From assembly GCA_021789895.1 (NCBI GenBank), contig JAJYIU010000006.1, positions 1 to 64,000 on the forward strand: a stretch of 64,000 nt of DNA. Reading direction: 5' to 3'. The position numbers were made by a program, and so were the translations under genes. The notes under the pieces are model-generated. The model worked only from the letters and a program-made list of their open reading frames with translations. It was not told the origin of the DNA and did not search any database. Positions 39,035-59,790 of the stretch are shown here, piece after piece (position 1 is the stretch's first letter; every line of letters starts with the position of its first letter). Source of the DNA: Acidobacteriota bacterium. GTDB lineage: Bacteria; Acidobacteriota; Terriglobia; Terriglobales; SCQP01.

Positions 39035-41701
39035 ATGCTGAGTGAATTCCGCTACCGCCTGCGTGCGATTTTCCGGCGTAAAACCGTTGAAGCAGAGCTG
39101 AACGAAGAACTCGCACAGCATCTGGAGCGCCAAGCCGCCAAGCACATTTCCGCCGGCATGCCGCCCGACGAAGCTCGCCGCCGGGCACGCATCGAATTGG
39201 GCGGCACGGAACAGATTCGGGAAGAATGCCGCGATGGCTGGGGATCACGAGCCTGGGAGCGGGTAATTGGAGATTTGGGCTATAGCCTGCGGCAGTTGCG
39301 GCGCAACCCGGGCTTTACCGTGCTGGCGATCGTCACGCTATCGCTTGGCATCGGCGCCAATACCGCCATCTTCAGCCTGGTCAATGGCGTACTTTTGCAG
39401 CCGTTAAACTATCGGAATCCCAAACAGCTTTTCCTGATCCAGGAAATAGTTCCTCGCTGGCATGGTGCATTGGAGGCCAATCTGCCCGATTTTCAAATCT
39501 GGCAGCGCCGGGCGAAATCTTTTCAAGGCATCGCGATTGCGGAACAAAGCGATGCCATTCTGACCGGAATGGGCGAGCCGGTCGAGATCCACGGCGTGCG
39601 CTGCTCGGCGAGCTTCTTCGACGTGCTGGGCGTGCGCCCGGCATTGGGGCGCGGCTTTTTGCCGAATGAAGATGCAAGCGGACATGGACAGTTCGTGATG
39701 CTTGCCAACGGGTTCTGGCGCAGCCGTTTTGGTGGCGATCCGGCCATCGTCGGGAAAACAATCACCCTCGACGGTAAGCCTTACGAGATTGCAGGCGTTT
39801 TGCCGCCTGGTTTTCGCTACCTGGGGGCCGGCCATCCGGCGTATTTTGAACCGCTCAATGGGCCCCGCTCGTACGAACGCGGCCTCATCGGCGAATTCGA
39901 TTTTGACGCCATCGGACGCCTGGCGCCGGGCGCAACCCCGCGTCGAGCCCTGGCCGAATTGAACCTGATCCAGGCGCAGATTGCGCGGGAAGCAAAAGCC
40001 GGGGTTAGGCTAGAAGCTAAAATTACGCCCCTGAAAGACGTGATTGTCGGGCCGGCGCGGCACGGGCTGATTTTTCTGCTGCTGGCGGTCGGCGCAGTGC
40101 TGCTGATCGTTTGTATCAATCTGGCGAACCTGCTGCTGGCGCGCGCGCCCGGTCGGATGCGCGAGGCGGCGATCCGGGAGGCGTTGGGGGCGTCGCGTGC
40201 AAGGATCGCAGGTCAACTGCTGGCTGAAAGCCTGCTGCTGGCGCTGGCGGGTGGAGTGCTTGGAGTCGGGCTTGCGGCGACCGCCTTGCACGCGCTACCA
40301 CATGCGGCAGCGGCCGGAATACCGCGCCTGAACGAAGTCGCCATGGATGGGCGAGTGCTGATTTTCACCCTGGGCGCGGTCCTGGCGGTGGCGGCGCTGT
40401 TTGGCGCGCTGCCGGCATGGAAAATCAGCCGTTACCATACCCGGCAAGCGTTACAAAGCGGTTCCTTGACGGTGAGCGAATCGCGGCGCACGCGCCGGAT
40501 GCGGCAGGGGCTGGTTGGAGGCGAAGTGGGCTTGAGCACGGCGCTGCTGATTGTCGCCGCCTTGCTGGCTATGAGCCTCGTCAACCTGCTGCGAATCAAC
40601 CCCGGCTTCGTGCCCCGGCATGCACTGGCGGCCGAGGTAGATTTGCCGCCGCAAAGCTATCGGCAACTCTCGGCCCGGCTGCTTTTCTACCACGACGTGC
40701 TGCACCGGCTGCGGGCGTTGCCCGGAGTAAAGCATGCAGGCTTCATTCACATTCTTCCTCTCACCGGTTCCGGCAGCGTCTCGCAGGTGACGGCGCCGGG
40801 CCAGCCACAGAGTCTGGCCAGGATGCCGATGGCGAACTACCGGGCGGTGAGCCGGGATTATTTTGCGGCGATGGGCATACCGGTATTGCGCGGCCGAAGC
40901 TTTGCCGCAACCGATCGCGGGCGCAGTGTGGTGCTGGTTTCGCAAAATCTGGCGCGGCGCTTCTGGCCGGGCGAGAATCCGATCGGAAAGATTTGCATTA
41001 ACGAATGGGGCCCGGCGCAGCGCGAGGAAGTCGTCGGCGTGGTCGGCGATGTGCGCAACCAACTCAACCGGAAGCCCCCGATGATGGTTTACGTGCCGGA
41101 CTGGGGGTTCGATGCGATCTCCCCGGCGCCGGCCAGAAAAATAATGCAGAATTTCGCGCTGCTGCAGGCGGCGATTGTCGTACGCACGTCGGCAGGCGTG
41201 GCGGGGACGATGAGCGCGATGCGGCAGGCGATTCACCGGGCGGGCCCGGACGTGCCCATCGTCAGCCTGCGTCCGATGACCACCTACATCGGGAAGGCGG
41301 TCAGGACACGACGCTTCGGGCTATGGATCGTATTTTGTTTTGGCGGGTTTGGCGTGTTTTTAACGGCGCTGGGTATTGCCGGGGTGGTGGCCAACGCCGT
41401 GGCGCAACGTCGGCACGAACTGGGCATCCGCATGGCGTTGGGCGCGCAGGCGGTCCAACTCCGGCGGCTGGTGGTGCGGCAGGGGATGATACCGGTGCTG
41501 GCCGGGCTGGCCGCCGGCATGGGCCTGGCCGGTCTGGCCGGCCGGCTGATTCAGGGAGTATTTTTCGGCGTCGGCGCGGACGAACCGGTCGCGTTGCTGG
41601 CGGTGGCCGGAATAATGTTGGTCGTCGCCTATGGCGCCTGCGTGCTGCCCGCCCGCCGCGGCCTGGAAATCAACCCGGCGGCGATTTTGCGCCGGGAATG
41701 A
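39035..41701 (+). CDS. ADOP-type ABC transporter permease (MacB/FtsX domains, duplicated)
   Basis: An 888-residue permease. An N-terminal cytosolic helical domain (about 1-80: FRYRLRAIFRRKTVEAELNEEL, then HLERQAAKHISAGMPPDEARRRA) is typical of acidobacterial duplicated orphan permeases. Then a first MacB-PCD periplasmic domain follows the membrane helix near 90-110 (NPGFTVLAIVTLSLGIGANTAIFSLV), an FtsX domain with three helices (about 340-460), a second periplasmic domain (about 500-740), and a second FtsX domain (about 760-880, with ALGIAGVVANAVAQRRHELGIRMALGA). No ATPase is encoded next to it, as usual for ADOPs. Its ribosome binding site AAAGGA overlaps the padR stop. Likely a MacB-like mechanotransmission or efflux component; substrate unknown. 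Confidence 0.88.
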   Translation: MLSEFRYRLRAIFRRKTVEAELNEELAQHLERQAAKHISAGMPPDEARRRARIELGGTEQIREECRDGWGSRAWERVIGDLGYSLRQLRRNPGFTVLAIVTLSLGIGANTAIFSLVNGVLLQPLNYRNPKQLFLIQEIVPRWHGALEANLPDFQIWQRRAKSFQGIAIAEQSDAILTGMGEPVEIHGVRCSASFFDVLGVRPALGRGFLPNEDASGHGQFVMLANGFWRSRFGGDPAIVGKTITLDGKPYEIAGVLPPGFRYLGAGHPAYFEPLNGPRSYERGLIGEFDFDAIGRLAPGATPRRALAELNLIQAQIAREAKAGVRLEAKITPLKDVIVGPARHGLIFLLLAVGAVLLIVCINLANLLLARAPGRMREAAIREALGASRARIAGQLLAESLLLALAGGVLGVGLAATALHALPHAAAAGIPRLNEVAMDGRVLIFTLGAVLAVAALFGALPAWKISRYHTRQALQSGSLTVSESRRTRRMRQGLVGGEVGLSTALLIVAALLAMSLVNLLRINPGFVPRHALAAEVDLPPQSYRQLSARLLFYHDVLHRLRALPGVKHAGFIHILPLTGSGSVSQVTAPGQPQSLARMPMANYRAVSRDYFAAMGIPVLRGRSFAATDRGRSVVLVSQNLARRFWPGENPIGKICINEWGPAQREEVVGVVGDVRNQLNRKPPMMVYVPDWGFDAISPAPARKIMQNFALLQAAIVVRTSAGVAGTMSAMRQAIHRAGPDVPIVSLRPMTTYIGKAVRTRRFGLWIVFCFGGFGVFLTALGIAGVVANAVAQRRHELGIRMALGAQAVQLRRLVVRQGMIPVLAGLAAGMGLAGLAGRLIQGVFFGVGADEPVALLAVAGIMLVVAYGACVLPARRGLEINPAAILRRE

Positions 41702-41828: not shown

Positions 41829-43345
41829 TTACCGCAGGTGGTAGGCGGCGGTGCGGGCGAAGTTGAGCACGGCTTCGGGGAAGATGCCCAGCCAGAGTAC
41901 GGCCAAGACGCAAGCCGCCATGACCAAGCCAAAGGCGCCGGAAGCGGCTGGGGCGGGCACTTCCTGCTCGGCGGGGCGCATGTACAAATAAACGACGACG
42001 CGCAGGTAATAGAACGCCGCCACGGCGCTGTTGAGCACGGCGACGATGACCAGGCCGACCAGATGCGCCTGGAGGGCAGCGCGGAAGACGTAGAGCTTAC
42101 CGAAAAAACCGGCAGTGAGCGGCACGCCGATGAGCGAGAGCAGGAAAACGGTGAGCGCGGCGGCGGCGAGCGGGAAGCGGAAGCCCAGGCCGGCGTAGTC
42201 GCCCAATTCGACATAGCGTTCGTCGCGATGGGCGAAATGGGCCAGCACGCCAAAGGCGCCGAGATTCATGGCCACATACGCGGCCAGGTAGAAGAGGATG
42301 GACGCGATGCCGTTGCCGGGGACGAGGGGGGCGGAGGGGCCGGCTTGGGCGGCGAGGATGGCGGGATTGACGGCGAGGGCAGCGAAAGCGACCAGGATAT
42401 AGCCGGCATGCGCGATGGAGGAGTAGGCCAGCATGCGCTTGAGATTGGTTTGCAGCAGGGCGGCGACATTGCCGACGGTCATGGACAGCAGGGCGGCGGT
42501 CCAGACCAGCCAGAACCAGGCGTGCGCGTAGCCGTGCAGCGCGACGTAGAAGATGCGCAAAAAGACGACGAAGGCGGCGGCCTTGGGCGCGGTGGCGAGC
42601 ATACCGGTGACCAGCGCGGGAGCGCCTTCATAAACATCCGGGGTCCAGACCTGGAAAGGGACGGCGGAAACCTTGAAGGCGACGCCGACGAACATCAGGC
42701 CGGCGGCGGCGGGAATGAGGCTGGCGGTGGTCAGACCGCCGAGCGAGATCTTGCCGGCGACGCCGCGCGCGATGGCGTCAATCATGGTCGAGCCGGTGCC
42801 GCCGTAAATCAGCGCGATGCCGTAGAGGAAAAACGCGGTGGCGAAGGAGCCGAGCAGCAGGTACTTCAAGGCGGCTTCGGTCGAGCGCGGGGCATGGCGG
42901 CGGTAGCCGCAAAGCACGTAGCTGGCGATCGAGGAAATTTCCAGCCCGATGAAGATCATCACCAGCTCGACCGAGCCGACCATGAAATCCATGCCGACGG
43001 CGGCGAAGAGCAGCAGGGCGTAGAATTCGCCGCGTTCGAGCTGCTGGGCGCGGAGATAATCCATGCCCAGCAGAACCAGGACGATGGTGGCCAGGGCAAT
43101 CAGGAAATGGAAAAAGACGGCGAGCGGGTCCACGCGGAACAGGCCGGAGAAGGCGTCGCCGGGGAAGCGCGCCTGCACGAAGCAGGCGGCGAAGGCGGCA
43201 AGCGAGCCGATCAACGCAATCCAGCCGCCGGCGCGGCCGCGGCTGCCGGCGCGCGCGGGGCCTTCCACCAGCAGAATCAGCGCTCCGAACGCCGTCAGCA
43301 CGATTTCCGGCAGGATGCGGGCATACCAGACGGCGGGCACGAAGC

Positions 43346-43349
<4 letters not shown>
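41829..43349 (-). CDS. nuoN: NADH-quinone oxidoreductase subunit N
   Basis: A 506-residue antiporter-like, proton-pumping membrane subunit of complex I, last gene of the operon. About 14 hydrophobic segments; the conserved region LERGEFYALLLFAAVGMDFM, GLEISSIASYVLCGY, STEAALKYLLLGSFATAFFLYG carries the key Glu in the fifth helix and the Lys in EAALKY. LQTNLKRMLAYSSIAHAGYI holds the discontinuous-helix Lys. Start overlaps the nuoM stop by 4 bases (ATGA). Inner membrane. Confidence 0.95.
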
Positions 43350-44947
<1,598 letters not shown>

Positions 44948-44964
44948 CGGCAAATCCTGTCCGG

Positions 44965-46971
<2,007 letters not shown>

Positions 46972-47001: not shown

Positions 47002-47313
47002 CTAATTTTTCATCAGGTCCATCTTGTCAATGTTGAGCGTGTTGCGATTGCGCACCACGGCAATGATGATCGCCAGCCCGACCGCGGCCTCGGCCGCGGC
47101 CACCACCATCACGAAAAAGACGAACAGGTTGCCGTCAATCGCGTTCTGGCGCAGGTAATGACTGAAGGCGACGAAGGTCAAGTTGACGCCGTTGAGCATC
47201 AGCTCGATCGAGATGAAGACCGTGATCAGGTCTTTTTTGAACAGGAACCCGGCCACGCCCAGCGCGAACAGCAGGGCGCTCAAGACCAGGTAATCCGCCA
47301 GGGATACCACCAT
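47002..47313 (-). CDS. nuoK: NADH-quinone oxidoreductase subunit K
   Basis: A 103-residue, three-helix membrane subunit. ATG 47313 was chosen because it overlaps the nuoJ TGA (TGATG) and gives the family length; an in-frame upstream extension lies inside nuoJ. Seen: [38 protein letters not shown] with the conserved helix-2 Glu, and [21 protein letters not shown] with the helix-3 Glu, both part of the proton path. Ends IDKMDLMKN. Inner membrane. Confidence 0.95.
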
Positions 47314-47879
47314 CAGGCTCCGGCTCCTTTTTCCCGGGTCATGGAATCCGCCGGCTCGGGGCATTCCTGCCTTGCCGGCTGCGGAGCCTCTTCCGGGCGC
47401 GCCGCCAGCATCACCGCGCCGGCCACGCCCACCAGGAAGAGCACCGAGGTGACTTCGAAGGGAAGCAGGTACTGATGAAACAAGGCCTGGCCGATATCGC
47501 CGATCTGGAACATCGGCTGTCCCAGGTTGGCGGGCACGCGGTGGTAGCGGCCGGCCACCCGCACCGCCAGCAGGATGGCCAGCAGGCCCGCCACCGGCGG
47601 TCCCAGCCAGCGCGCGGCGCGGCTGGCGCGCGAAGGCTCGCTGGGCTGGGCATTGAGCAGCATGATCACGAACACGAACAGCACCATGATGGCGCCGGCA
47701 TAGACCAGAATCTGTATGAAGGCGATGAATTCGGCGCCGAGCAGCAGGAACAGCACCGCCAGCGAGCCCATCACCAGCACCAGCGAAAGGGCGCTATGGA
47801 TGGGGGCCTTCTGCACCAGCAGGTTGATCGCGCCCGCCAGGGCGAGGCCGCCGAAGAGGATAAACAGCGCCAGTTGCAT
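47313..47879 (-). CDS. nuoJ: NADH-quinone oxidoreductase subunit J
   Basis: A 188-residue membrane subunit with about five hydrophobic segments. [47 protein letters not shown] contains the conserved helix-3 region with the pi-bulge Tyr. The C-terminal 25 residues after [10 protein letters not shown] are polar. It starts only 4 bases after the nuoH stop: nuoI, which normally lies between nuoH and nuoJ, is absent. Overlaps nuoK by 1 base. Inner membrane. Confidence 0.94.
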
Positions 47880-47883
47880 AGGC

Positions 47884-48900
47884 TTAGTGCAGCACCGCCA
47901 CCGCGAAGCTGGTGACCAGCACGTTGGCCAGCGCCAGTGGTACCAGCACTTTCCAGCCGAAGGCCATGAGCTGATCGTAGCGGAAACGCGGCAAGGTGCC
48001 GCGCACCCAGATGAAGAGGAAGAGGAAGGCCGCCACCTTCAGGGCGAACCAGAAGATGGGCAGCAGGATGCGCAGCGGCGCGGGGCCGAAGACCGGGCCC
48101 GACCAACCGCCGAGAAACACGATCGTGGCAACCGCGCTCACGGTGATCATGTTGGCGTACTCGGCGAGGAAGAACATGGCGAACTTCATCGCGCTGTACT
48201 CGGTATGGTAGCCCGCTCCCAGCTCGCCCTCGGCCTCGGGCAAATCGAAGGGGATGCGGTTGGTTTCGGCGAACCCGGCGGTGAGATAGATAAAAAAGGC
48301 CAGCCACTGCGTCCAGAGAAACCAGTGGCCGCCGGCCTGCGCCTCGACGATGCCGTGCAGGCTCAAGGTGCCGGCCAGCAGGATGGGGCCGATCAGCGCC
48401 AAGCCCAGCGACAGCTCGTAGCTGACCATCTGCGAGCCGGCGCGCAGCGAGCCCAGCAGCGAATACTTGCTGTTGGACGACCAGCCGGCCAGCACGATGC
48501 CGTACACCCCCAGCGAGGTCACGCCCAGCACGTAGAGCAGGCCGATATTCAGGTCGGTCAACTGCAGCGGAATGGTCCAGCCGTGGATCTGCAGCGGCGG
48601 GCCGACCGGAATCACCGCAATAGCCAGCAACGCCAGCGTGACCGACAGAATCGGGGCCAGGAGGTACAGCCCTTTTTCCGAAGCCGTCGGGGTAATGTCT
48701 TCCTTGAGGATGAACTTGACCGCATCGGCGAGCGGCTGCAGCAAGCCAAACGGGCCGACGCGCGTGGGGCCGACCCGCGATTGCATGCGGGCGACGATTT
48801 TGCGCTCGGCCAACTGGATATAGGCGATCAGGGTGGTGAGAATGAAGAGCGCAATCAGCGCTTTCACGATCGCGACCACCACGAACGTGCCGATCGTCAT
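47884..48900 (-). CDS. nuoH: NADH-quinone oxidoreductase subunit H
   Basis: A 338-residue membrane subunit forming the quinone chamber with NuoB and NuoD. Seen: QLAERKIVARMQSRVGPTRVGPFGLLQPLADAVKFILKED (family signature), GVYGIVLAGWSSNSKYSLLGSLRAGSQMVSYE, and AETNRIPFDLPEAEGELGAGYHTEYSAMKF with the conserved acidic loop. About eight membrane helices. Its ATG overlaps the nuoG stop by 4 bases. Inner membrane. Its NuoB partner is not encoded in this operon. Confidence 0.96.
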   Translation of the reverse strand: MTIGTFVVVAIVKALIALFILTTLIAYIQLAERKIVARMQSRVGPTRVGPFGLLQPLADAVKFILKEDITPTASEKGLYLLAPILSVTLALLAIAVIPVGPPLQIHGWTIPLQLTDLNIGLLYVLGVTSLGVYGIVLAGWSSNSKYSLLGSLRAGSQMVSYELSLGLALIGPILLAGTLSLHGIVEAQAGGHWFLWTQWLAFFIYLTAGFAETNRIPFDLPEAEGELGAGYHTEYSAMKFAMFFLAEYANMITVSAVATIVFLGGWSGPVFGPAPLRILLPIFWFALKVAAFLFLFIWVRGTLPRFRYDQLMAFGWKVLVPLALANVLVTSFAVAVLH

Positions 48901-51188
48901 GGCCGCCCCTCCGCAGTTTTGCGCAGGTACTTTTCCATCACCGAGTTCAAGGCCGCGCTGTAGCGGCCCAGGGTGCCGGCCTCGAACAGGCGGTCGCGGC
49001 CGCCGGCCTGGCCCTCCGGATGCGGCCCGGCGGCGGCGGCGATGGGCGTTGCCAACTGGCTCTGCCCGGCCCAGAGCTGCAGCAAGGAAACGTCATAGCC
49101 GCGAACCGCGCCGCGAATTTCCTGCAATACTTTTTCCGGGCTGGGCTCGCCCCATTCCAGGCCCAGCAGCGCCGCCAGCTCGTAGAAGATTTCCAGGTCG
49201 GACTTGGCCCCTTCGAATTCGGCGGCGCGGCGCTGGAGTTGCACTTCGCCGCAGGTGTTGGTCAGCGTGCCCTGCTTTTCGTAGGCGCAGAGGGCGGGCA
49301 GCACCACGTTCGCCTGGCGCGCGGTTTCGGTCAGGAACAGGTCCTGGGCGACCATAAAGCCGGTTTCGGGATCGCGCTCGATTCCCAGCCGGCCGAATGG
49401 ATTCGCGCCCACGGTATAAAGCGCGCCCAGTTTGCCCGCGGCGAAGGCGCGCGCCATCTGGCCGGCGTCCATGCCGGGCGCGGCGGGGATTTCGCCGCCC
49501 CAGAGCCGGGCGAAACGCTCGCGCGCGGCCGCGTCGCCGAGCGGTTCGTAACCGGGCAGCAGATCGGGATACAGCCCCATGTCGGCCGCGCCGCGGGAAT
49601 TGGAATCGTCGCCGGCGAGGATGAAGCGGGTCCGGCCGCTGCGCGCAAATGCGAACTCCGCCAGCGCGGCCAGCGCCGGGCCGCTCAACTCCGCCCCGAT
49701 GACGGCGATCAGGTCGGCTTCGCCCGCCACCAGGCGGCGGAAATCGGCCAGCGATTCGGCCACCGGCGCGGCGGGCGGAATCGGCGTCTGCGGCCAGCGC
49801 TTGTCATCGGGCGGCAGCGCGCGGAACATCTGCGCCGCCGGCGGCTCCGGCCCGGGCTGGGCCAGGTATTGCAGCGCCTGCAGCAGCGTTCCCGCTGCGA
49901 CCCGGGCGCTGCGGTGCGACTGGCGTTCCAGTTTGATTTCGCGATCGGCGAGGGTATAGATGCGCGCGCCGCTCAAGCGCCAGGCCCAACGCAGGTTCCA
50001 GGCCAGCAGCGGATGCTGCTCGGTCGGATCGCCGCCGGCCACCAGCACCGCCGCCGCCGTTTTCAGATCGCCGGTAGCGGCCAGGCCGGCGTTGGCGCGG
50101 CCGGCCAGCAGGGCCAACAGGGCGGGGAAGTCGGCGCTGCGGTGATGATCTATATGGTTGGTGCCAAGCCCGGTGCGGGCCAGCTTTTGCAGCAGATAGC
50201 TTTCCTCGTTCAGGCAGCGGGTCGAGCCGATCACGCCCACGCCCGCCCCGCCGTCGCGCTGGCGGCGCAGCCCGGCGGCGGCGGTTTCCAGCGCATGCGC
50301 CCAACTCGCCGGCTGCAGCCGGCCTTCGCGCCGCACCAGCGGCTGGCGCAGGCGCTCGTCATGGCGGGTAAAGTCGAAGGCGTAGCGCCCCTTGATGCAG
50401 AGGAAGTCGCCGTTGATGCCGCTTTTGTCGCGGTTGTCGCCGCGTAGAATCTGCCCGTTGCGCACCCCCAGCGTGGTGCGGCAGCCATCGCCGCAGAAGG
50501 TGCAGACGGCGGCGGTGTGCTGCATTTCCCAGGGCCGGGTCTTGTAGCGGTAGGCGCCGCTGGTGAGCGCACCCACCGGGCAGATATCAATACACATGCC
50601 GCATTCTTCGCACTGCAGGTGGTCGCCGTGGTTGGGAATGATGCTCGAACCGACGCCGCGCTGGCCGCCGATGCCCAGCGCCCAGACGTCCATGCCCTCG
50701 CCGCAGACGCGCACGCAGCGATAGCAAAGGATGCAGCGCGGCCGGTCGAAATAGACGATCGGCGACCACTGCTGCTCGTCGCGATGCCGCTTGGGCTCGA
50801 TGAACCGGCTGGAAGCGGCGCCGTAGCGGAAGGTCATGTCCTGCAATTCGCACTGCCCGCCGGCGTCGCAGACCGGGCAGTCGAGCGGGTGGTTGGTGAG
50901 GATGAATTCGATCTGGCCCTTGCGCGCCGCCTTCACCGCCTCGGTCTCGGTGCGCACCACCATCCCCTCCGCCACCGGGACCGTGCAGGCGGTCTGCAGC
51001 TTGGGCATCTTCTCGATTTCCACCAAGCACATGCGGCAGGCGGCCTGAAGCGAAAGATTAGGGTAGTAGCAGAACGACGGCACCTCGATTCCGGCCGCGC
51101 GGCAAGCTTCGATCAGCAGCATGCCGGCGGGCGCGGTCAGCGCCCGTCCATTGACGGTCAAATTCACCGTGGTCTTCGCCTCGCTCAT
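48897..51188 (-). CDS. nuoG: NADH-quinone oxidoreductase subunit G
   Basis: A 763-residue peripheral-arm iron-sulfur subunit. ATG 51188 ([10 protein letters not shown]) overlaps the nuoF TGA (ATGA). A [2Fe-2S] ferredoxin domain comes first ([24 protein letters not shown], then ACTVPV), followed by the His/Cys [4Fe-4S] site ([19 protein letters not shown]), two further [4Fe-4S] motifs ([27 protein letters not shown]) and a molybdopterin-oxidoreductase-like domain opening with CTFCGDGC. The domain order is that of bacterial NuoG. It overlaps nuoH by 4 bases. Cytoplasmic side. Confidence 0.95.
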
Positions 51189-52483
51189 GCCTCCGCCCCG
51201 TGTACCGCGCCGAACGGGCACGCCCGCCCGCGCAAATGGTCTTCGAATTCGCCGCGGAACTTGCGCACGATGGAGATGATCGGCATGGCGGCCGCATCGC
51301 CCAGCGGGCAGAAAGTCCGGCCCAGGATGTTTTCCGAAACGCTGCGAAACAGCTCGATATCCTCCTGCCGCCCGCCGCCGCTATGGAAGCGGCGCAGGGC
51401 CAGCTCCAGCCAGTTGGTGCCCTCGCGGCAGGGGACGCACCAGCCGCAGGATTCATGCCGGTAGAAGTGCATGATGCGCAGCGCGAACTCGACCATGCAG
51501 GTATGCTCGTCGGCCACCACCACCCCGCCGGAGCCGAGAAACGAGCCCAGCTTGGCAATGGAGTCAAAATCCATATTGGCGCTGAGGGCTTCCTCGGCGG
51601 TGAGGATGGGGGTGGAACTGCCGCCCGGCACCACCGCTTTCAGCTTGCGCCCGCCGGGCAGGCCGCCGCCGAGTTCCTCGATCATGCGCCGCAGCGGAAA
51701 GCCGAGCGGCAGCTCGTACACGCCGGGGGTATTGAGGTGCCCGCTGAGGCAGAACAGCCGCGTGCCGCCGTTTTTCGGCGGCCCAAAGCCGGCAAACCAG
51801 GCGCCGCCGCCCAGCAGGATGTGCGGGACGCTGGCCAGGGTTTCGACGTTGTTGATGACCGTCGGCCCGCCGTAAAGGCCGGAGGTGGCGGGGAAGGGCG
51901 GCTTCATGCGCGGAAAGCCGCGCTTGCCTTCGAGCGACTCCATCAGCGCCGATTCCTCGCCGCATTCGTAGGCGCCGGCACCGCTGTGCGCGGCCAGATG
52001 AAACTCGAAATCGCTGCCCAGAATGTTTTTGCCCAGCAGCCCGGCGGCATAGGCTTCGGCCAGGGCGCGCTCGACGATCTCGATCAGGTAGCGATACTCG
52101 CCGCGGATGAAGATGTAGCCCTGCCGGGCGCCGATCGCGCGCGCGCAGATGCTCATGCCCTCGATCACGGCGAAGGGATCGCGCTCCAGAATGACGCGGT
52201 CTTTGCAGGTGCCGGGCTCGCTCTCGTCGGCGTTGCAGAGCACGTATTTGGGCTTGGGCGACTGCGCCGGCACGAACGACCATTTCATGCCGGTGGGAAA
52301 GCCGGCGCCGCCGCGGCCGCGCAGGCCCGACTGCTTGACTTCGTCAATGATCGCCGCCGGGGTCATGGCCAGCGCTTTTTCCAGCGCGCGGTAACCGTCG
52401 CTGCCGCGGTAGCCGGCAAGAGTCGCCGCGGCGTCGTCGTCGAAGCGCCGGCTGACAATGCGGATTTCGGCCGGATGGCTCAT
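51185..52483 (-). CDS. nuoF: NADH-quinone oxidoreductase subunit F (NADH/FMN-binding)
   Basis: A 432-residue subunit that oxidises NADH. ATG 52483 ([10 protein letters not shown]) overlaps the nuoE TGA (ATGA) and gives the family length, so the long upstream open frame was not used. Seen: [17 protein letters not shown] (NADH site), [22 protein letters not shown] (FMN/NADH site), and the N3 [4Fe-4S] ligands [12 protein letters not shown] plus the Cys in [12 protein letters not shown]. Works with NuoE and NuoG as the electron-input module. Cytoplasmic. Confidence 0.96.
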
Positions 52484-53037
52484 GCCCGTGGCTTGCCCTT
52501 TCCCTCCGCCGGCGCGGCGCCGTTGCCGGGGTAAGCGGGGTCGGGCCGCGGCGGCGCGCCGCGGCGATAGCCGTCCAGAATCTGATCCACCCGCTCCGGG
52601 GTCAGGTGATGAAAGAAGTCGTAATTGACCTGCATCGCCGGCGCCCAACTGCAGGCGCCCATGCACTCGACTTCTTCCAGCGAAAACGTCCCCTCCTCGC
52701 CGCCGCCGCTCCCGGCCGCCGCGCCGTCCAGGCGATGCCGGCAGTGCTGCAGGATGCGCTCGCCGCCGCGCAGCAGGCAACTGATGTTGGTGCAGACCTG
52801 CACGTGATAGCGGCCCGCCGGCTGGGTGCGCAGCATGGAGTAGTAGCCGATCGCTTCGCGCACCGCGATTTCGGGAATTTCCAGCCGCTCGGCCACGGCC
52901 GTGATCGCTTCCGGCGTGAGCCAGCCGATTTCGTCCTGCGCGTACAGCAGCATCGGCACCAGCGCCGAGCGCTTGTGCGGGTACGACGCCAGCAGCTTGC
53001 GAAAGCGTTCTTCCAATTCCGGGCTGAAAGTCGCCAT
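52480..53037 (-). CDS. nuoE: NADH-quinone oxidoreductase subunit E
   Basis: A 185-residue thioredoxin-like [2Fe-2S] subunit. An N-terminal helical bundle ([22 protein letters not shown]) is followed by the cluster ligands CTNISC and CMGAC ([29 protein letters not shown]). The C-terminal 30 residues are Pro/Gly-rich. Overlaps nuoD by 1 base and nuoF by 4 bases. Cytoplasmic. Confidence 0.95.
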
Positions 53038-54260
53038 CAGCGGTCCACCTCGCCCAGCACGATATCAATGCTGCCAATCACCGCTACCACGTCGGCCAGC
53101 AGCCGGCCTTCCACCATCCGCGGCAGCGCCTGCAGGTTGACGTAGGAAGGCGAGCGCATGTGCACCCGGAAGGGCCGCGGGCCGCCGTCGCTGACCAGGT
53201 AATAGCCCATCTGCCCGCGCGGCGATTCCACCGCCTGGTACACCTCGCCCGGCGGCACCGCAAAGCCCTCGGTCACGATCTTGAAGTGATAGATGAGGGC
53301 TTCCATCTCCGATTTCATCTGGTCGCGGTCGGGCAGGGTCACGCCCGGCGCGTCGGCCTTGAAATGGCCCGCGGGCATGCCCTCCAGCGCCTGGCGTATG
53401 ATCTTCACGCTCTCGCGCATTTCCTGCAGCCGGATGAGATAGCGCGCATAGACGTCGCTTTCGGTGCGCACCGGCACCTCGAACTGGAACTCCTCATAGC
53501 AGGAATACGGCCGGTCGCGGCGCAGATCGAGGCTGATGCCGGCGGCGCGCAGGCAGGGGCCGGTCACGCCCAGGGCGATGGCGTCATCCGGCGAGATGTA
53601 GCCGACGCCGCGCGTGCGCCCGCGCCAGATGGTGTTGCGGGTGAGCAGCGCCTCGTATTCGTCCACCCGGTCGGGGAAGTAGCCGATGAATTTCCGCACC
53701 CGTTCGAGCATGCCCAGCGGCGGCTCCAGCGCCAGCCCGCCGACGCGGAAATACGAGGTCATCATCCGCTGGCCGCTGACGTATTCGAAAATTTTCAGGA
53801 TTTCCTCGCGCTCGCGGAAGCAGTAGAGGAACACCGTCATCGCGCCAATGTCGAGCGCGTGCGTGCCCAGCCAGACCAGATGGCTGTTGAGGCGGGTCAG
53901 CTCGTTGAGCAGAACGCGGGTCCAGGCGGCCTTGCGCGGCGGCTCGAGCTGCAGCAGTTTTTCCACCGCCAGCACGTAGCAGAGATTGTTGGTCAGCGGG
54001 CAGAGATAGTCTATGCGGTCGGTGAGCGTGACCGCCTGCTGGTAAAACTTCGATTCGCAGCTCTTTTCGATGCCGGTATGCAGGTAGCCGATATCGGAAC
54101 TGGCCTTGACCACCAACTCGCCGTCAATTTCCAGCACCACGCGCAGTACGCCGTGAGTCGAGGGGTGCTGCGGCCCCATGTTCAGGATCAGATGGCGGCC
54201 GTCGGCGCTGCGTTCGCTGCCGAACGGATTGGCTGGAGGGAGCGGGTTCGCGGCGCCCAT
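53037..54260 (-). CDS. nuoD: NADH-quinone oxidoreductase subunit D
   Basis: A 407-residue quinone-binding subunit related to hydrogenase large subunits. ATG 54260 ([13 protein letters not shown]) overlaps the nuoC TAA by 1 base; an upstream open frame in nuoC was not used. Seen: [23 protein letters not shown] with the quinone-site His, [18 protein letters not shown]-like [37 protein letters not shown] and the terminal DIVLGEVDR. Next to NuoB in the assembled enzyme, yet no nuoB is present in the cluster. Cytoplasmic face. Confidence 0.96.
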
Positions 54261-54736
54261 TAGCGGTAGCCCTCCACGGGATAATCCTTGCGCAGCGGGT
54301 GTCCTTCCCAATCGTCCGGCAGCAGGATCCGGCGCAGGCCGGGATGGCCTTCGAAACGCACTCCAAACAGGTCGAAAACCTCGCGCTCGAACCAGTTGGC
54401 CGTGGGCCAGATGCTGGTGACCGAGGGCACCGGCGCCGACTCGTTGGCGCCCACCTTGACCCGCAGCCAGTCGCGGCGATGGACGGAATAAAGCTGGTAG
54501 GCGACTTCGAAGCGCGGATCGGCGGTGCGCCAATCCACGCAGCTCAGGTCGCAAAGCAGCTTGAAATCCAGCTCGGCGTCATCGCGCAGCGCCAGCATCG
54601 CCGCCGCCAGCCGCGCCGCGGGAATCCAGACCGTTAGCTCGCCGCGGTCGTGCCGCACCCGCTCGATCGAGCCGGGCAGCAGTTGCTCCAGCCGCTGGGC
54701 CGCCGCGTGGGCGGCAATGTCTTCGTTCAATGCCAT
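54260..54736 (-). CDS. nuoC: NADH-quinone oxidoreductase subunit C
   Basis: A 158-residue (30 kDa-type) subunit. Seen: LLCDLSCVDWRTADPRFEVAYQLYSVHRRDWLRVKV, then the signature PSVTSIWPTANWFEREVFDLFGVRFEGHPGLRRILLPDDWEGHPLRKDYP (quoted here only as landmarks: ANWFEREVFDLFGV and DDWEGHPLRKDYP). Shorter than some NuoC proteins but complete. Starts 52 bases after the nuoA stop, a gap too small for nuoB, the gene that normally lies there. Confidence 0.94.
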   Translation of the reverse strand: MALNEDIAAHAAAQRLEQLLPGSIERVRHDRGELTVWIPAARLAAAMLALRDDAELDFKLLCDLSCVDWRTADPRFEVAYQLYSVHRRDWLRVKVGANESAPVPSVTSIWPTANWFEREVFDLFGVRFEGHPGLRRILLPDDWEGHPLRKDYPVEGYR

Positions 54737-54788
54737 GGGTGCAATCGAACCAACTCAAAACCGGCCGCCGGGAGGTTTACGGCCACGC

Positions 54789-55205
54789 TCATTCCGCCCG
54801 CTCCGGCTGGTTCCAATCAATTACGCCTTTTCTCCAAATGTAGTAAAAGCCCGCCAGCACAATACCGACATACACCAGCATTTCGAGAAAACCGAACAGC
54901 AGCAACTGGCGATAGACCACTGCCCACGGCAGCAGGAAGACTGCTTCGATGTCGAACAGGATGAAAACGATGGCGACCAGATAAAACTTCACTGCGAAGC
55001 GGTGCTGGGCATCCCCGGTCGGAATGATGCCGCACTCGTAGGGCGAAAGTTTGCGCCGGGTGCGGCGGTGCTGTCCGACCAGATAGGAGATGGCAACGAT
55101 CACCAGGGCAAAGCCCAGCGCCAGCACAAATTGAATCAGCACCGGCACATAGTGGACGATGTAAGGTCCGGGGGTGGCGGGCTGGGCGGGTAAGGCCACG
55201 ATCAT
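54789..55205 (-). CDS. nuoA: NADH-quinone oxidoreductase subunit A
   Basis: A 138-residue, three-helix membrane subunit, first gene of the operon. ATG 55205 (MIVALPAQ) is the likely start; the frame is open further up without family similarity. Seen: YVPVLIQFVLALGFALVIVAISYLVG, KLSPYECGIIPTGDAQHRFAVKFYLVAIVFILFDIEAVFLLPWA region with the conserved YECG and FDIEAVFL motifs. A strong promoter lies at 55399-55428, leaving a leader of about 187 nt. Inner membrane. Confidence 0.95.
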   Translation of the reverse strand: MIVALPAQPATPGPYIVHYVPVLIQFVLALGFALVIVAISYLVGQHRRTRRKLSPYECGIIPTGDAQHRFAVKFYLVAIVFILFDIEAVFLLPWAVVYRQLLLFGFLEMLVYVGIVLAGFYYIWRKGVIDWNQPERAE

Positions 55206-55544: not shown

Positions 55545-56681
55545 ATGACACGCTTCCGCGACCTCGCCCTCGGGTTGGCCACGCCGGCCGCGGCGCTGGC
55601 GTTCGCCGGATGCGGAGGGCATGCCACGCCCCTCGCGCAGCCGATGCGCGCCCTGCCGGTGATGGTGATGCCGGTCCGGCTGACGCCGGTCGCGCAGACC
55701 ACGCAATATGTCGCCACGCTGCAGTCCCGGCTGACCGCCACGCTGCATCCCCAGGTGACCGGCTATATCCGCGCCATCCGGGTGCATGCCGGTGAACGGG
55801 TGCCGGCGGGACGCCTGCTGATGGTGATTGATCCACTCAAGCAGCAAGCGACGGTGCGCAGCCAGGCCGGCGCGCTGGCGGCGCAACGGGCGCAGGTAGC
55901 CTACGACCGCCAGCAACTGCAGCGCGCCGAGGCGCTCTGGAAAGCCAAGGTCGCCGCCCGCCAGGAGCTGGACCAGGCGCGCTCCGCTTATGCCAGCGCC
56001 GCCGCCCAACTGGCCGCGCTGCAGGCGCAGTTGCGCGAGCAGCAGGTCGAGCTTCGCTACTACGACATCGTCGCTCCCCGCGCCGGCATCGTCGGCAACA
56101 TCCCGGTGCACGTCGGCGACCTGGTCACCAACACCACCGAGCTGACCACGGTGGACCAGCCGGGCAATCTCGAAGCCTACATTTACGTTCCGGTAGAGCG
56201 CGCCGCCGGGCTGCGCCCCGGCTTGCCGGTGCAACTGGTGGGTGCCAGCGGCAAAGTACAGGCGTCCAGCCGCATCAGCTTCATCTCGCCGCAGGTGGAT
56301 GCGAGCGCCCAGACCATCCTGGTGAAGGCGGTTTTCGGCGATGAAGGCGGCCGGCTGCGCAACCAGCAAACCGTCAACGCGCGCATCGTCTGGGGCAGGA
56401 AGCCGGCGATGCTGGCGCCGGTGCTTGACGTCAGCCAGATCAATGGCCGCCAGTTCGTCTTCGTGGCCGAGCCGGGGCCGCACGGCTACGCCGCCCGCCA
56501 GGTGATGATCACCGTCGGTCCGATCATAGGCAACAACTACGTGGTCGAAAGCGGCTTGAAGCCGGGCGACCGGATGATCGTCTCCGGCACCCAGTTTCTG
56601 GTTTCGGGTATGCCGGTGATGCCGATGACGCCTCCGGCGAAAGGCGCGCCCCCGCGCGCGCCGGCTCAGCCCCATGGTTGA
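55545..56681 (+). CDS. RND efflux periplasmic adaptor (membrane fusion lipoprotein)
   Basis: A 378-residue AcrA-type adaptor. The signal peptide ends in a lipobox (ALAFAGCGG, lipidated Cys about residue 23). Lipoyl half-motifs (ATLHPQVTGYIRAIRVHAGERV; DIVAPRAGIVGNIPVHVGDLV) flank an alpha-hairpin coiled coil (about 100-170), followed by beta-barrel and membrane-proximal domains (SRISFISPQVDASAQTILVKA; GLKPGDRMIVSG). It links the inner-membrane pump to an outer-membrane channel. Overlaps the pump gene by 8 bases. Divergent from nuoA. Confidence 0.92.
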   Translation: MTRFRDLALGLATPAAALAFAGCGGHATPLAQPMRALPVMVMPVRLTPVAQTTQYVATLQSRLTATLHPQVTGYIRAIRVHAGERVPAGRLLMVIDPLKQQATVRSQAGALAAQRAQVAYDRQQLQRAEALWKAKVAARQELDQARSAYASAAAQLAALQAQLREQQVELRYYDIVAPRAGIVGNIPVHVGDLVTNTTELTTVDQPGNLEAYIYVPVERAAGLRPGLPVQLVGASGKVQASSRISFISPQVDASAQTILVKAVFGDEGGRLRNQQTVNARIVWGRKPAMLAPVLDVSQINGRQFVFVAEPGPHGYAARQVMITVGPIIGNNYVVESGLKPGDRMIVSGTQFLVSGMPVMPMTPPAKGAPPRAPAQPHG

Positions 56682-59600
56682 TTTCTTCATCCGCCGCCCG
56701 ATCTTCGCCACGGTTTGCGCGCTGATCATCATCCTGGCGGGCGCGATGGCGATTCCCACCCTGCCGGTGGCGCAATACCCGCAACTGGCCCCGCCCACGG
56801 TCACCGTCACCAGCATCTACACCGGCGCCAGCGCCCAGGAAGTCGAGACGGCGGTCACCATTCCGCTGGAGGAAGCGATCAACGGCGCCATCGGGCTGCG
56901 CTACGTCTCCTCCAGCAGCAGCAATAACGGCGTCAGCACCATCACCGCGACCTTCGACGTGACCCGCAACCTCGATCTGGCGGCGGTGGACATTCAAAAC
57001 CGCATCAACAGCATCGAGGGCTTGCTGCCGGCCTCGGTGCTGACCAACGGCATTTCCGTCACCAAGAACGGCGCCGGGTTCGTCCTCGCCGCCGGCTTTT
57101 ACGCCTCCCATCACCAGTACAACAACCTGTTCATCAGCAATTACCTGAGCGTCTATGTGGCCGACGCCATCGCGCGCGTGCCGGGCGTGGCCAACGTCAA
57201 CGTCTTCGGCCAGCGCACCTATGCCATGCGCATCTGGCTCGATCCGCTCAAGCTGGCGGCGCGCGGCCTCACCGCCGACGACGTGCTCGCCGCCTTGCGC
57301 GAGCAGAACGTCGAAATCGCCGCCGGCGCGGTGGGCGCGCCGCCGGCGCCGCCCCGCCAGGCGTACCAGTTTTCGGTGCGCGCCGCCGGACGGCTGAGCG
57401 AGCCCGCCCAGTTCGACAACATCGTGCTCAAAACCCAGCCCAACGGCGGGCTGATCCGGCTGAGCGACGTCGGCCGGGCGGAATTGGGCGCCCAGGATTA
57501 TTCCATCAACCTCGATTTCAACGGCCGGCAGCTCCTCGGCCTCGGCGTGCAGCAGTTGCCCAACGCCAACGCTCTGGCGGTGGATACGGCGGTGAAAGCC
57601 GAGCTGGCGCGGCTGGCGCGCAATTTTCCGCCCGGGCTGAAATACGCCATCGCCTTCGACACCACCACCGCCGTGCGCGATTCGATTCACGACGTACTGG
57701 TCACGCTGATCGAGGCCATCGTCCTGGTCATCCTGGTCATCTTCCTCTTCCTGCAGGACTGGCGCACCACGCTGATTCCCGCGGTCACCATCCCGGTTTC
57801 CCTGATCGGCACCTTCGCCTTCGTCAAGCTCTTCGGCTTCTCCATCAACACCCTTACCCTGTTCGCACTGGTGCTGGCCACCGGGCTGGTCGTGGACGAC
57901 GCGATTGTGGTGATTGAAAACGTCGAACGCCATCTTTCCGAGGGCGTCACCGAGCCCCACCGCGCCACTTCGGTGGCCATGGGCGAAATCACCAGCGCCG
58001 TGATCGCCACCTCGCTGGTGCTGATCGCCGTCTTTGTGCCGGTCGCGCTGTTTCCCGGCACCACCGGCATCCTGTTCCGCCAGTTCGGGCTGACTATCGC
58101 CTTCTCCATCGCCATCTCGGCCTTTAACGCCCTGACCCTGTCGCCCGCCCTCTCGGCCATCCTGCTGCGCGAAGTGCACCATAAAAAAGGCGTCTGGGGA
58201 TGGATTGATGGCCTGATCCAGGCGCTCACCCGCTTTTACCGCCGCCTGCTGGCGGCGATGCTGCGCTGGCGCTGGGCGCTGGCGCTGCTCTTCCTCGTTA
58301 CCGCCGGCCTCGCCTGGTTCATCTTCCAGCAGGTGCCCACCGCCTTCGTCCCCTCCGAAGACCAGGGCTACATCATGGTGCTGGCGCAGGCCCCGCCCGG
58401 CGCTTCGCTCGGATATACCACCAACATCCTGCGCCAGGCGGAGGCCATTCTCGCCCGCCAGCCGGAAGTCGAGGGCGCCTTCGCCATCGCCGGCTTCAGC
58501 TTCGCCGGCGCCGGCGCCAACGCGGGCATGATGTTCGTGGATCTAAAGCCCTACAACCGGCGCCCCGGCGCCGCCCACTCCGCCCAGGCGCTGGTGGCGC
58601 GCCTGCAACAACAGTTTTTCGCCATCCCCGGCGCGCTGGTCGCGCCCATTTTGCCGCCGGCCATACAGGGGCTGGGCACCTTCGGCGGCTTCCAGCTCGA
58701 AGTGCTGGACCAGAGCGGCGCCAGCGAGCAGCAGCTTGCCGCCGCCACCCAGGCGCTGGTGCGGGCGGGCAACGCGCTGCCCAGCCTGCGCGGTCTCTTC
58801 AGCACCTTCACCGCCAACGATCCCCAGGTCCAGGTCAGCATCCATCGCAACCTGGCCAAAAGCCTGCAGGTGCCGCTCGAACAGATCACCAGCGCCTTGC
58901 AGACATACATGGGCTCGGTTTACGTCAATAACTTCGATTTCAACCACCGCGCCTACCGGGTGTACGTGCAGGCGGCGGCGCGCAATCGCAGCCGGCCGCA
59001 GGATATCGTCGAGTATTATGTCAAGGCGAACAACACCAACCGCCTGATTCCGCTCGCGCACCTGGTGCATATCGGCTACACCTCGGCGCCGCAGAACATC
59101 AACCATTACGACCTGTTCCGCTCAGCCGAAATTGACGGCTCCGCCGCCCCCGGCACCAGTTCCGGCCAGGCGATGACCACCATGGAGCGGATGGCGGCAA
59201 AGGTGCTGCCGCACGGCATGACCGTCGCCTGGACCGGGTTGTCGCTGGAAGAGCTGCAATCCGGCAGCAAGGTGGTGATGCTGTTCGCGCTCGGCTTCCT
59301 GGTGGTTTTCCTCACCCTTTCGGCGCAGTACGAGAGCTGGGTGCTGCCCTTCATCGTCATGCTGGCGGTGCCGGCAGCGATGCTGGGCGCGCTGGGGGCG
59401 CAGTGGCTGCGCGGTCTCAACAACGACGTCTATTGCCAGATCGGGTTGGTGATGCTGATCGGGCTGGCCAGCAAGAACTCGATTCTGATTGTCGAGTTCG
59501 CCGAGCAGTTGCGCGATCGCGGGCTGTCGCTCTTCGAGGCCACGCTGGAGGCGGCGCGGGTGCGGCTGCGGCCCATCCTGATGACCTCGGTGGCGTTCAT

Positions 59601-59790
59601 GTGCGGCCTAATCCCGCTGCTGGTGGCCACCGGTTCCGGCTCCGCCGCCCGCCATTCGGTCGGCACCGCAGTGTTTGGCGGCATGCTGCTGGCCACCACG
59701 CTCAACCTTTTCTTCATCCCCGCCCTTTACCTGATCGTCCGCGGCCTCTTTCCCGGCGGCGGCCGCCACGCGATCAAAATTGAAAAATAA
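56674..59790 (+). CDS. RND multidrug efflux pump, HAE1/AcrB family
   Basis: A 1038-residue inner-membrane proton-drug antiporter. The N-terminus VDFFIRRPIFATVCALIII is the HAE1 signature; the proton-relay residues match AcrB: Asp408/Asp409 in GLVVDDAIVVIEN and Lys934 in GLASKNSILIVEFAEQ. Two sets of six membrane helices and two large periplasmic loops (about 35-335 and 560-865) are visible. No TolC-like outer-membrane gene lies in the window, so a shared channel is likely. Substrates cannot be read from sequence. A hairpin 50 bases after the stop may terminate the operon. Confidence 0.94.
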   Translation: MVDFFIRRPIFATVCALIIILAGAMAIPTLPVAQYPQLAPPTVTVTSIYTGASAQEVETAVTIPLEEAINGAIGLRYVSSSSSNNGVSTITATFDVTRNLDLAAVDIQNRINSIEGLLPASVLTNGISVTKNGAGFVLAAGFYASHHQYNNLFISNYLSVYVADAIARVPGVANVNVFGQRTYAMRIWLDPLKLAARGLTADDVLAALREQNVEIAAGAVGAPPAPPRQAYQFSVRAAGRLSEPAQFDNIVLKTQPNGGLIRLSDVGRAELGAQDYSINLDFNGRQLLGLGVQQLPNANALAVDTAVKAELARLARNFPPGLKYAIAFDTTTAVRDSIHDVLVTLIEAIVLVILVIFLFLQDWRTTLIPAVTIPVSLIGTFAFVKLFGFSINTLTLFALVLATGLVVDDAIVVIENVERHLSEGVTEPHRATSVAMGEITSAVIATSLVLIAVFVPVALFPGTTGILFRQFGLTIAFSIAISAFNALTLSPALSAILLREVHHKKGVWGWIDGLIQALTRFYRRLLAAMLRWRWALALLFLVTAGLAWFIFQQVPTAFVPSEDQGYIMVLAQAPPGASLGYTTNILRQAEAILARQPEVEGAFAIAGFSFAGAGANAGMMFVDLKPYNRRPGAAHSAQALVARLQQQFFAIPGALVAPILPPAIQGLGTFGGFQLEVLDQSGASEQQLAAATQALVRAGNALPSLRGLFSTFTANDPQVQVSIHRNLAKSLQVPLEQITSALQTYMGSVYVNNFDFNHRAYRVYVQAAARNRSRPQDIVEYYVKANNTNRLIPLAHLVHIGYTSAPQNINHYDLFRSAEIDGSAAPGTSSGQAMTTMERMAAKVLPHGMTVAWTGLSLEELQSGSKVVMLFALGFLVVFLTLSAQYESWVLPFIVMLAVPAAMLGALGAQWLRGLNNDVYCQIGLVMLIGLASKNSILIVEFAEQLRDRGLSLFEATLEAARVRLRPILMTSVAFMCGLIPLLVATGSGSAARHSVGTAVFGGMLLATTLNLFFIPALYLIVRGLFPGGGRHAIKIEK

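Follow-up and report, generated by a model that had tools for sequence, protein, structure and literature searches.

The window, as we call the whole 64-kb stretch of DNA analyzed here, belongs to contig C13 of a 3.75-Mb assembly (G000) that is fragmented into 79 contigs and is 95.5% complete. It contains a complex I operon on the minus strand, whose genes were named by using Pfam or NCBIfam profiles and follow the order nuoA, C, D, E, F, G, H, J, K, L, M, N (Table 1). No gene lies between nuoH, whose 3' end reads ...GTG CTG CAC TAA, and nuoJ; only GCCT (47883 to 47880) separates the stop codon at 47884 from the ATG at 47879. The original prediction that nuoI is missing here and that 4 bases remain was therefore correct to the base. 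It had also stated that two FeS subunits are absent from the operon, and indeed, nuoB was not found either, the end of nuoA (54789) and the start of nuoC (54736) being only 52 bases apart. The locus is not a contiguous nuoA-N operon with nuoB between nuoA and nuoC and nuoI between nuoH and nuoJ.

Table 1. Features of the complex I operon in the window
Feature	Position	Strand	Length	Evidence or remark
nuoN	41829..43349	-		TIGR01770 above cutoff
nuoM	43346..45025	-		TIGR01972 above cutoff; upstream-most start probably too early
nuoL	44965..46971	-		NCBIfam NuoL above cutoff
nuoK	47002..47364	-		PF00420 4e-27
nuoJ	47313..47879	-	188 aa	PF00499 1e-37
nuoH-nuoJ junction	47880..47883	-	4 bases (GCCT)	nuoI slot of canonical operons
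nuoH	47884..48900	-	338 aa	PF00146 3e-126, NCBIfam NuoH
nuoG	48897..51221	-		TIGR01973 455 bits, slightly below cutoff of 470; motif scan
nuoF	51185..52486	-		TIGR01959 above cutoff; ESCGxCxPCR N3 ligand motif; start coordinate approximate
nuoE	52480..53037	-	185 aa	PF01257 6e-46
nuoD	53037..54260	-		TIGR01962 above cutoff; HPSTHG and DRIDY quinone-site motifs intact
nuoC	54260..54736	-	158 aa	PF00329 9e-48
nuoA-nuoC junction	54737..54788	-	52 bases	nuoB slot of canonical operons
nuoA	54789..55205	-		PF00507 9e-36 and reading

A tblastn search of the window with four queries, two each for NuoB and NuoI, gave only weak similarity to NuoG and NuoE. Paired 4Fe-4S motifs (CxxCxxCxxxCP) were present in NuoG only, as had been claimed before; a scan of the 64 kb in six frames for C..C..C...C gave two matches in NuoG, and the other two were in frames of 29 and 3 amino acids. 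The catalytic motifs of the peripheral subunits are intact, including the cysteines of NuoE, NuoF and NuoG and the HPxTHG and DRxDY motifs of NuoD. Directly divergent from nuoA, the plus strand carries a probable RND-type efflux pair (55545 to 59790), a membrane fusion protein and a 1038-aa pump, which were named by reading. No tRNA was found between positions 40000 and 60000 of the window.

NuoB bears cluster N2, and NuoI bears clusters N6a and N6b. A search of the whole genome revealed two NuoI above the curated cutoff and two NuoB, one of each within a second nuo operon on contig C54. The other two are encoded by lone genes on contig C39: nuoB at C39:23402-23983 (NuoB profile match at C39:23564-23890) and nuoI at C39:85504-86034 (NuoI profile match at C39:85540-85923 with 142.7 bits, above the curated cutoff). 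The lone nuoI is not beside nuoB but 62 kb away from it. Lone NuoB matched Nqo6 of Thermus (3e-71) and lone NuoI matched Nqo9 (7e-49), and both have kept all of the cysteines that ligate their clusters. Nqo6 and Nqo9 have solved structures, and the similarity to them is strong enough to establish the fold. With NuoA, NuoC to NuoH and NuoJ to NuoN encoded in the window and NuoB and NuoI encoded on contig C39, the genome encodes 14 of the 14 subunits. The lone nuoI is predicted to be monocistronic, since the aquaporin gene upstream is divergent and the gene for a fumarase-type lyase downstream is convergent; a promoter scan upstream of it did not reveal a sigma-70-like site. An open reading frame that fuses an ABC-transporter ATPase to the C-terminal domain of an iron-dependent repressor (PF00005 and PF02742; L014:5254-6363 on C39) ends 39 bp before the lone nuoB, an adjacency that is conserved in the sister species only.

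We consider it very probable that the window operon belongs to an ordinary 14-subunit NADH:quinone oxidoreductase to which NuoB and NuoI are supplied in trans and that this dispersal is ancestral. The operon would make the main part of the enzyme (NuoA, C, D, E, F, G, H, J, K, L, M, N), and NuoB (N2) and NuoI (N6a/N6b), made from the single genes elsewhere, would join the same enzyme. If the subunits coassemble in this way, electrons would flow from NuoG via NuoI and NuoB to the quinone. The original prediction had offered two explanations for the gap, relocation of the genes or their replacement by another electron transfer partner. Relocation is supported by the intact nuoB and nuoI elsewhere in the genome, and because these exist, replacement is not needed. 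That a different electron transfer protein connects NuoG to the quinone site, without NuoB or NuoI, has a practically negligible probability: we found no evidence for such a protein, the remaining NuoI profile matches in the genome were weak (≤33 bits), and canonical NuoB and NuoI with all of their ligands are present, conserved and encoded by single-copy genes in relatives.

Lone-type nuoB and nuoI, located away from nuoH, were present in 41 of the 41 genomes of the order that were searched whole. Identities of the lone-type copies across the order were 77 to 93% for nuoB (with one fragment at 86%) and 65 to 89% for nuoI; in the contig-fragmented genome G007, lone-type nuoB was found only as a piece of 32 residues. 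In 17 of the 41 genomes (G004, G006, G015, G017, G018, G021-G023, G026, G028, G029, G031, G033, G035-G037 and G039), NuoB, NuoH and a real NuoI are each encoded only once, and since there is no other copy, the lone genes must serve the complex. One of these genomes, G035, is closed and has nuoB at 1.31 Mb, nuoI at 2.02 Mb and nuoH at 2.61 Mb, with nuoB and nuoI some 0.72 Mb apart. Terriglobia loci were gathered by similarity to the NuoH of the window, so that the counts speak for operons of this kind. nuoI was lacking in all 80 named operons and at all 79 readable nuoH-nuoJ junctions (largest gap, 375 bp), and nuoB was lacking at all 57 readable nuoA-nuoC junctions (largest gap, 158 bp); wherever readable, the 80 loci hold the order A-C-D-E-F-G-H-J-K-L-M-N. 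Because the Terriglobia operons share both empty junctions, the gap is not an accident of assembly. Most likely, it reflects an inherited gene dispersal, an arrangement common to the whole order of soil Acidobacteria, and the enzyme is probably complete.

The second operon (nuoA-B-CD-E-F-G-H-I-J-K-L-M-N; L013) is complete and of the E. coli type, with a fused nuoCD and a NuoG of 896 amino acids, and would encode a separate, second complex I. Such a second set is found in several relatives and is absent from many. According to the original prediction, a complete second operon could make the gap that of a degenerate paralogue. The complete operon does exist (G000:C54:619-15108), but we regard it as very improbable that it encodes the working complex I and that the window operon is a decaying spare. 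All twelve remaining genes in the window have intact frames and are under purifying selection where tested, and the 17 relatives, which do not have a second operon, have kept the dispersed set alone, by which this explanation is refuted in the relatives. As both sets are present together in the genome, both complexes could also receive their NuoB and NuoI from the C54 operon, with the lone copies doing something else. However, the lone copies share only 55% (NuoB) and 43% (NuoI) identity with those on C54 and persist in relatives without a C54-type operon, which makes such sharing of subunits extremely improbable.

Supply of NuoB and NuoI from the lone genes is also in line with the substitution rates. 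When this genome was compared with the congener G001, dN/dS was 0.064 for the lone nuoB and 0.049 for the lone nuoI, and the values for seven in-operon subunits (A, C, D, E, H, J and L) were all above those of the lone genes (0.085 to 0.225). Purifying selection is strong on both the operon and the lone genes. A shared neighborhood of the lone nuoB and nuoI was sought in ten genomes, but none was found beyond the sister species, save for a few cases in the family: a gene for an HD-domain protein adjoins the lone nuoB in some members, and a lyase gene and an iron-sulfur-assembly gene lie near the lone nuoI in one further genome. Since the neighbors are not conserved beyond close relatives, selection acts on the genes and not on a new cluster, and across the order, it is thus only sequence and copy number that tie the lone genes to the operon.

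A comparison of gene order across Acidobacteriota indicated how the dispersal may have arisen. In a phylum-wide sample, nuoH loci occurred in three states: nuoB and nuoI in place, nuoB present without nuoI, and neither present. Outside the order, the closest relatives retain nuoB in the operon, and their nuoI stands alone elsewhere. In trees of the two proteins, which are short and gave several weakly supported deep branches, the lone NuoB of the order grouped with the in-operon NuoB of genomes whose operon has nuoB but not nuoI (support, 90) and the lone NuoI grouped with the lone NuoI of the same genomes (support, 81 to 84). Since there are related operons with nuoB but without nuoI, nuoI most likely left first; nuoB would have left later, on the branch leading to the order of this genome, a sequence of events suggested by trees of moderate support. 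This is the simplest interpretation; alternatively, nuoB may have been reinserted into the operons that have nuoB without nuoI.

The original prediction had assumed that nuoB and nuoI were removed together, possibly by relocation of a nuoB-nuoI pair. Detached nuoB-nuoI or nuoI-nuoB pairs do occur in other acidobacteriotal families, and both genes could have left as a pair that was split afterwards, which would affect only the order of events. For this genome, we consider a joint departure to be quite unlikely. The genes are 62 kb apart here and 0.72 Mb apart in G035, and the nearest outgroup operons still hold nuoB with nuoI alone elsewhere. In the trees, it is the NuoB and NuoI of these outgroups that are most closely related to the lone proteins, and the copies from detached pairs are placed on different branches. 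The stepwise states, with nuoB kept while nuoI is gone, argue for separate departures in this lineage.

Detached pairs of nuoB and nuoI, in either order, were found in G103, G075, G085, G154, G121, G114, G142 and G128, and a detached B-I-B arrangement was found in G098; in the few kilobases read around each of them, no other nuo gene was present. A pair cut by the end of a contig was found in G111, and in G116, the pair adjoins a second operon. In the triplet of G098 (L261:5143-6611 on contig C23), two different NuoB flank one NuoI, and a different contig of the same genome carries a nuoC-D-H-I-J-K fragment (L156). Operons without nuoB are not monophyletic (AU test, p = 3e-10; five or more changes of state in the NuoH tree) and arose more than once. 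This recurrent, lineage-specific detachment provides natural replicates for the question of why subunit genes stay together or drift apart. It is conceivable, but in our view doubtful, that the repeated exit of the genes for the Q-module iron-sulfur subunits NuoB and NuoI, paired or singly, was selected rather than being the outcome of neutral shuffling, with promoters of their own being an advantage; for instance, expression could then be tied to iron or cluster assembly.

With regard to canonical complex I (Nqo1-14 of Thermus, nuoA-N of E. coli), all 14 subunits are encoded here, there is agreement in the profiles, the ligand cysteines and the motifs of the quinone site, and the remaining genes stand in the canonical order, but nuoB and nuoI lie apart as single genes. 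Split gene sets for complex I have been described before. A survey from 2025 spoke of "split" and "single cluster" complex I across many clades (PMC12361115), and in NUO-2 of Nitrospina gracilis, nuoB2 and nuoF2 lie outside the clusters (PMC3578206). As in these sets, the genes for what would be one complex are at separate loci and dispersed over the genome; in contrast to them, it is precisely nuoB and nuoI that lie outside, an entire order is fixed for this state, and NuoF has retained its ligand motif. NDH-I is transcribed in Acidobacterium capsulatum, which belongs to the same phylum and has been cultured, and nuoAC and nuoE-N are the operon genes named in that study; the location of nuoB and nuoI is not addressed in the part of the paper that deals with these genes (PMC11636273). 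Our search of open-license papers gave no description of nuoB and nuoI becoming detached repeatedly in Acidobacteriota. The present case shows that a gene missing from a nuo operon does not indicate that complex I is broken or altered. Among the members of a major soil phylum, the genes for the two subunits that pass electrons on to the quinone are often located elsewhere, and automated pathway calls that require a contiguous operon would misread such genomes.

Other dispersals were also observed in the phylum, and thus, nuoB and nuoI are recurrent but not the sole genes to leave. G048 (L269, L122) has a detached nuoA-nuoB pair and an operon in which neither nuoA nor nuoB was found before nuoC. 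In G154 (L270, L273) and G117 (L272), the operon is divided into two blocks, A-B-C-D-E(-F) and H-J-K-L, the split falling after nuoE or nuoF, and nuoI is alone elsewhere.
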